Shown here one piece after another: positions 1-34,207 of a DNA stretch of 58,255 nucleotides; position 1 is the stretch's first letter, and every line of letters begins with the position of its first letter. The stretch is from assembly GCA_021841025.1 (NCBI GenBank), contig JAKBWA010000103.1, positions 1 through 58,255 of the forward strand, read 5' to 3'. This DNA comes from Bacillota bacterium (GTDB taxonomy: Bacteria > Bacillota > Sulfobacillia > Sulfobacillales > Sulfobacillaceae). The notes beneath the pieces were generated by a model. The model was given only the letters and a program-made list of their open reading frames with translations, did no database searches and was not told where the DNA came from. The translations under genes and the position numbers were made by a program.

Positions 1-138
1 GAAATTATTCACCAGTTCATCAAAGAGATTGTCGTCGGACATGATACGGTTTCCATTAAGGCGACAATCCCTACGGTGGTGCAATCACCCAGCGTCTCGC
101 CCCAAAACCCCCTGACCGTGACCATGTCTTTGCAGTAA
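1..138 (+). CDS. C-terminal end of a probable large serine recombinase (SpoIVCA-like), cut by the window edge
   Basis: Frame 1 is open from the first base to a TAA at 136-138 and gives 45 residues. The segment has a short hydrophobic/acidic stretch (IKEIVVGHDTVSIKATI) typical of the extreme C-terminus of large serine recombinases, followed by a Pro/Gln/Ser tail. No catalytic domain is visible because the gene starts upstream of the window. The identification rests mainly on position: the gene ends 45 bases before the 3' part of sigK, and in spore formers the recombinase that excises the sigK intervening (skin) element is a large serine recombinase encoded inside that element. The alternative is an unrelated protein end; 45 residues are too few to be sure. 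Confidence 0.5.
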   Translation, partial: EIIHQFIKEIVVGHDTVSIKATIPTVVQSPSVSPQNPLTVTMSLQ

Positions 139-173
139 ATTGGCAATTACTTCCGCAACCTCCTGTCAGTGAC

Positions 174-178
174 AACGA
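174..178 (+). other. Candidate skin-type recombination core inside sigK codons
   Basis: The sigK reading frame can be traced back upstream of the TTG at 183 through codons for S-D-N-E-V-L-M-H-L-R. In Bacillus sigK the join between the two gene halves falls in the matching stretch (I-E-N-E-I-L-M-H/Y-L-R) at a five-base core AATGA. Here the equivalent bases are AACGA at 174-178. Upstream of about residue N, the frame no longer resembles sigma factor sequence and meets a TAA at 57-59, as expected if foreign DNA begins here. The exact crossover point is inferred by analogy. Confidence 0.4.
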
Positions 179-182
179 AGTA

Positions 183-536
183 TTGATGCATCTGCGCAAT
201 CAAAAGAAGCTCAAAAGCGAAATCAGTATTTATAGTCCCATAGGGGTGGATCGTGAAGGTAACGAGATTTTGTTGCTGGACATTTTAGCCAGTGGAGATG
301 AAGTTCCCGACACGGTTGAGGTGAGCATGATTATGGAATGGGTTACAGATTTTGTTTCGAGTTTGACACGCAAAGAACGCCTAGTATTGAGCTTGCGATT
401 TGCCTTGAATGGCCAGGATAGACGGTATACGCAAAAGGAAATTGCACAGAGGTTGGGAATCTCTCGCAGTTACGTTTCCCGTATTGAAAAAAGAGCCGTT
501 GAAAAGATTTTGGCATCTTTAAGCTTACCGACGTGA
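183..536 (+). CDS. 3' part of the sporulation sigma factor sigma-K (SpoIIIC-like fragment)
   Basis: The 117 residues match only the C-terminal half of sigma-E/sigma-K type factors. The start resembles the end of region 2/3 (MHLRNQKK, then PIGVDREGNEI and LLDIL), and residues about 60-117 are a sigma region 4 with helix-turn-helix (TQKEIAQRLGISRSYVSRIEKRA). The complete family is about 235-240 residues, so the promoter-melting regions 1-2 are absent. The annotated TTG has no good ribosome-binding site, which suits a fragment that is not translated alone. A recombinase end sits directly upstream, the arrangement of spoIIIC in skin-interrupted sigK. After excision the fragment would be fused to a 5' half located elsewhere. 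The alternative is a degraded sigma gene, but the reading frame and motifs are intact. Confidence 0.85.
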   Translation: MMHLRNQKKLKSEISIYSPIGVDREGNEILLLDILASGDEVPDTVEVSMIMEWVTDFVSSLTRKERLVLSLRFALNGQDRRYTQKEIAQRLGISRSYVSRIEKRAVEKILASLSLPT

Positions 537-33544: not shown

Positions 33545-34207
33545 ACTGAACGCACATTCACTAGTCATGAAGTCGCTCACGTGCTCGATGTGAACAGCAA
33601 GACGATTCAACGGTGGGATCGCGAGAGCCGACTCAAGCCGGCTGGTCGGACGGCCACAGGCCGTCGCTATTATACCGAAGACCAAATTCTGGCCTTTCGA
33701 CATCAGCCACCGGTCACGACGAGTCCACGTAAGACGGTCGCCTATTGCCGGGTCAGTAGCCAGAGTCAGCGGCCCGATTTGAAGGACCAACGGCGTGCCC
33801 TGGAACAGTTTTGTACGGCATGCGGCCTCGCCCACGTGGAGTTTATCGAGGAAGTTGGTGGGGGCATGAACTGCCGCCGCAAGCAGTTTTTGGTCGTGAT
33901 GGACGCAGTGGATGCCGGAGAAATTGGCACGGTGATTCTGGCCCATAAAGACCGGTTGACGCGGTTTGGTTAGGAGTGGTGCGAGCGATTCTGCCAGCAA
34001 CACGGATAGGAGATTCTTGTTCGCAACCAGGAGCACTTATCTCCTGAGCAAGAGTTGGTCCAAGACTTGCTCACCATTACGCAGGTGTTTTCGGCGCGAT
34101 TGTATGGGTTGTGGAACTATCGCAAAAGCTTCAGGGAGGCCATTCATGCCGACGTTAGCACACAGGATCCGGCTGGATCCGACGCCGGATCAGATCCGGT
34201 TCTTTAA
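33545..34207 (+). pseudogene. IS607-type TnpA serine recombinase, interrupted by two amber stops
   Basis: The frame starts with an excisionase-like winged helix (FTSHEVAHVLDVNSKTIQRW, then GRRYYTEDQI) followed by a resolvase domain with the catalytic serine in VAYCRVSSQSQ. It then reads LAHKDRLTRFG-TAG-EWCERFCQQHG-TAG-EILVRNQEHLSPEQELVQ and on through LYGLWNYRK to a TAA at 34205. The stops are at 33971-33973 and 34019-34021. No ATG/GTG/TTG precedes the helix-turn-helix part in frame; the first start (GTG 33581) would cut it. The protein is therefore probably inactive. GC content is higher than in nusB or the downstream genes. Confidence 0.85.

Follow-up and report, generated by a model that had tools for sequence, protein, structure and literature searches.

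A split sigK and a probable skin-type intervening element of the SpoIVCA/Skr kind in a Sulfobacillus-group acidophile

The window analyzed here, 58,255 bp long, is contig C54 of a draft genome (G000; 118 contigs, 3.39 Mb, estimated contamination 1.9%) from an acidophilic spore-former of the Sulfobacillus group. Base 1 of the window is the contig edge, so that sequence upstream of it cannot be read there. The features of its left end are the following:

1..138, plus strand: C-terminus of a large serine recombinase, putatively SpoIVCA-type, 45 codons and stop, cut by the contig edge (identity to the G002 and G010 recombinases)
151..166, no strand assigned: right inverted-repeat arm of the att site, TTCCGCAACCTCCTGT (its exact reverse complement forms the other arm, next to the sigK 5' half on contig C107)
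174..178, plus strand: core AACGA common to both junctions, attR side (sequence comparison and in-frame join; partner C107:1629-1633, minus strand)
174..536, plus strand: sigK 3' half, sigma regions 3-4, without a start codon of its own (NCBIfam SigK 3e-41, Sigma70_r4 5e-16)

NCBIfam SigK models match positions 171-533 at 3e-41 and 2e-39, solely from profile position 110-112 to the end, which confirms that the window carries the C-terminal part of sigK, as the first-pass annotation of this DNA had claimed. That annotation placed the part at 183-536. The 3' half is real, but its start must be moved: position 183 is merely the first TTG, and the sigK-homologous frame begins at the recombination core (174-178), with no start codon belonging to the frame. 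Downstream of sigK, in the opposite direction, lies a gene for a DUF4012 protein (616-2448), which also adjoins the intact sigK of G003, a genome of the same genus. Farther into the window, a Resolvase-domain frame containing two TAG stops (33737-34099) is probably a decayed transposon recombinase.

The product of positions 1-138, taken alone, has no Pfam, NCBIfam or PHROG match. It does, however, match the C-terminal 45 residues of a full-length, 528-residue large serine recombinase in G002, of the same genus (L088:1507-3093), at 95.6% identity, and the end of the G010 recombinase at 60%. The complete G002 protein shows Resolvase, Recombinase and Zn-ribbon domains; its gene also ends 39 bp before the sigK 3' half, and the first 170 bp of the window are 96.5% identical to G002 at the DNA level. 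The earlier suggestion that a probable large serine recombinase ends just upstream of the sigK part thus holds. We tentatively assign this recombinase to the SpoIVCA kind by comparison with relatives found at the same place. The element's own large serine recombinase is seen here through its 45-residue tail, most of the gene falling in the assembly gap left by the unassembled middle of the element. Neither a Pfam Recombinase search nor a protein search of the genome found the recombinase body elsewhere, and 10 kb of the G002 element searched against the genome returned just the two junction stretches and short repeat-like pieces. Other Resolvase matches in the genome were considered as the missing body and rejected as short and unrelated. 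A full recombinase gene had been expected between the two sigK halves; this assembly has the tail only, while close relatives carry the full gene at the same place.

The 5' half of sigK was recovered from the same genome as a truncated match in a whole-genome search for Sigma70 region 2 (C107:1629-1972, minus strand). Its frame terminates in LATYCARCIENELLVTGGCGIKW, followed by a stop codon; the I-E-N-E type ending that had been predicted for this half is therefore present, and the other att arm lies just beyond it. When a joined SigK query was compared with the whole genome, the two halves covered it at 98-99% identity, each half was present once, and no intact sigK was found. The query also matches, with about 45% identity, one further sigma factor, which is taken to be SigE. 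The gene is thus split, as proposed from the window alone, with one half on C107 and the other in the window. C107 runs 1.6 kb into the element and then ends, with two ORFs of no known family in this part. Long frames of 767 and 901 residues that seem to fuse the sigK halves to other proteins look like chance frames in GC-rich DNA, and we set them aside.

Both halves stop at the shared core AACGA, which represents the Asn-Glu codons of CIENEV. The B. subtilis skin element interrupts sigK at the same codons. On the element side, this short core is accompanied at either end by the inverted arms ACAGGAGGTTGCGGAA and TTCCGCAACCTCCTGT, an exact match of 16 bp; matches of at least 12 bp were obtained in 0 of 2000 shuffles. 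Joining the halves at AACGA restores a 233-residue frame without a stop, corresponding to pro-sigma-K, which begins with a hydrophobic stretch like the B. subtilis sigma-K pro-sequence. The joined frame crosses the junction as CIENEVLMHLRN, like the intact SigK of G003 and G004 (CIENEVLMHLRNQKK); the same region reads CIDNEVLM in the intact SigK of G001 and G005. In G003, the C107 flank lies on one side of sigK and the window's DUF4012 gene on the other, so that gene order in this relative is C107, sigK, window.

A split sigK is common among relatives. We found it at the same site in at least 13 of 61 genomes searched, mostly Sulfobacillia (this genome, G002, G008, G010, G011, G017, G019, G024, G026, G030, G037, G039 and G055), and most of these have a recombinase beside a sigK half. 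Several show one half only because contigs end. The gene is intact in G001 and G003-G005, all of the same genus. Complete elements at the same codons span 2.7 kb in G011 (ferritin/Dps-like and Fur genes with the recombinase), 5.1-5.2 kb in G024 and G026 (SurE, BacA/UppP, DsrE and HxlR genes with the recombinase) and 14.5 kb in G017. Cargo at L068:2325-3287, L070:3688-6915 and L069:2181-16182 consists of ordinary cellular genes (Dps-like, Fur, SurE, BacA/UppP, DsrE, HxlR) and not of phage structural genes; by eye, the L069 element also contains apparent catabolic genes. The G002 element (L088:1500-17816) reaches the end of its contig after more than 16 kb and carries genes that by eye resemble reverse transcriptase and PIN-domain genes; no sigK 5' half was found in G002.

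Another genome of the same order, G040, presents sigK in two contexts. Its contig C149 ends inside a joined sigK (end of L082/L186), and its own contig C107 has the same 3' half after different DNA (L083/L185). The two contigs overlap by exactly 99 bp, starting at the recombination point. Such an arrangement is consistent with a mixed population, whether of strains or of copies with the element excised and inserted. In the interrupted context, no recombinase was found beside the 3' half, and the one large serine recombinase of G040 occupies a different contig, where the stretch examined gave no match to sigK.

Taken together, the two halves, shared core, inverted arms, in-frame join, flank synteny, recombinase tail and complete elements of relatives lead us to conclude with high confidence that sigK here carries a skin-type element of the SpoIVCA/Skr kind, inserted at the Asn-Glu codons (CIEN|EV). 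The first-pass annotation had inferred that this genome carries its own skin-type element from one edge only; the 5' half in the same genome, with its I-E-N-E end and matching att arm, and the failure to find an intact sigK now support that inference.

We may also consider that a skin-like element was inserted but has since decayed and can no longer excise, leaving a lineage without sigma-K whose sporulation would be incomplete. The assembly indeed lacks the recombinase body and any directionality factor. However, the recombinase tail is intact, in frame and nearly identical to its complete homologue, neither sigK half contains a stop and both are well conserved, and the 16-bp att arms pair without a mismatch, none of which is expected after decay; we regard this scenario as improbable. 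An origin of the halves in two different strains, or a chimeric contig edge, as a draft in 118 contigs with some estimated contamination and two contigs both ending within the element might suggest, is very improbable: each half is single-copy, arms and core match, same-genus G002 has the recombinase directly before the sigK 3' half on one contig with near-identical DNA, and flank order is that of G003.

For the skin-type element, we propose the chromosomal order C107 (reversed), 5'-sigK, attL, element, attR, sigK-3', C54. C107 and C54 are separate contigs, physically unjoined in the assembly; of the element, C107 would contain at least 1.6 kb and C54 173 bp, with an unassembled middle between them. 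In the mother cell, its large serine recombinase would recombine attL with attR, assisted by a small directionality factor whose gene would immediately precede that of the recombinase, the whole recombination unit being under sigma-E-type control. Excision would rejoin sigK and release a circle in which the 16-bp arms would face each other, while the germline copy in the forespore would keep the element. Homology predicts that this excision takes place during sporulation and is needed to finish the spore. Since the predicted protein keeps its hydrophobic pro-sequence, sigma-K would, as in B. subtilis, be restrained at two levels, the interrupted DNA and the processing of the pro-protein; a membrane protease gene in the genome could be spoIVFB.

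The skin element of B. subtilis uses SpoIVCA together with Skr, a 64-residue protein; the 3' end of its gene shares a 101-nt overlap with spoIVCA (PMC6957869). In this genome, the recombinase body and any skr-like gene fall in the assembly gap. Most Sulfobacillia, and many of the other relatives, have a small ORF whose stop lies at the recombinase start or slightly past it. The Sulfobacillia ORF has about 55 codons, and differences between related copies are mostly at third codon positions; this bias supports a coding function. Profile comparison detected no homology between the Sulfobacillia small ORFs and those of Bacilli and Clostridia, and we consider the ORF a candidate skr-like directionality factor by position, not by sequence. 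A CATA box, of the -10 type recognized by sigma-E and sigma-K, occurs 25-48 bp before the small ORF in nine of 11 relatives, against a null mean of 1.6; this enrichment is suggestive only, as visual inspection of these same sequences had first drawn attention to the box, and some of the sequences are related. Compared singly with the sigma-E consensus, just one upstream region fits above chance.

Several known systems can be compared with this element. It shares with B. subtilis skin the cut in sigK, a large serine recombinase within the element, inverted-repeat att sites with a 5-bp core (skin att sites have 5-bp repeats placed outside longer inverted repeats; PMC5025042), a predicted pro-sequence on sigma-K and, in relatives, a small ORF that overlaps the start of the recombinase gene or directly adjoins it. 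The differences from skin are the small size of relatives' elements (complete ones span 2.7-14.5 kb), observed cargo that does not consist of phage structural genes, a Sulfobacillia small ORF that cannot be aligned with the Bacilli ones, and a recombinase that in relatives usually lies beside the 3' half, codirectional with sigK. In Clostridioides difficile, the skin element (CD1231/CD1234) is likewise excised from sigK by a large serine recombinase and a small directionality factor (PMC5025042), yet it departs from the B. subtilis type in its recombination unit and in where it sits in sigK (PMC6957869); the present element is closer to the B. subtilis type. The gin element of Bacillus cereus (GirC/GirX), a non-phage element that sporulating cells excise with a serine recombinase and a 42-residue directionality factor (PMC5595907), is also gene-intervening, but its target is gerE. 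Other elements inserted in sigK in Bacilli are Alicyclobacillus phage MMB025 and island IV of B. cereus bv anthracis (PMC13141910, PMC10745906): the former differs in being an infectious 105-kb phage with core TCTC, the latter in being a 22-kb island at another position of sigK.

A profile scan of named genomes across Bacillota returned 79 loci with relatives of the recombinase, 63 of them with a sigK half within the examined flanks. The remaining 16 (L111, L115, L121, L126, L128 and others) show no sigK half within these flanks. The family ranges over Paenibacillus, Brevibacillus, Anoxybacillus, Neobacillus, Pelotomaculum, Syntrophomonadaceae and Thermaerobacter, and its members usually adjoin the sigK 3' half, in the same direction as sigK. 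A quick tree places the Sulfobacillia recombinases together, with support of 99 for the 10 of 11 grouped without L108 and 62 for all. Two sigK elements of about 1.8 kb in Clostridia (L170:921-3384 and L177:5423-7918) contain little besides a recombinase, encoded antisense to sigK, and a small ORF that overlaps it, and judging from gene content we view them as putative bare excision cassettes. We may speculate, although we think it somewhat doubtful, that the skr-spoIVCA unit in sigK is not a series of unrelated prophage insertions but a developmental switch of ancient origin, present phylum-wide and retained because it is useful for regulation; lineages would have added cargo to it or lost cargo from it, down to the bare cassette of about 1.8 kb.

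The SpoIVCA/Skr type of skin is already known, but apparently undescribed in the class Sulfobacillia: we found no paper on sigK interruption in this class in the literature searched, which excludes most subscription journals. The present finding extends SpoIVCA-type interruption of sigK to iron- and sulfur-oxidizing acidophiles far from Bacillus and ties a recombinase family to sigK across Bacillota. With close species that have and lack the element, and with elements ranging from bare cassettes to cargo carriers, this group offers a natural test of whether such elements are parasites or regulators.
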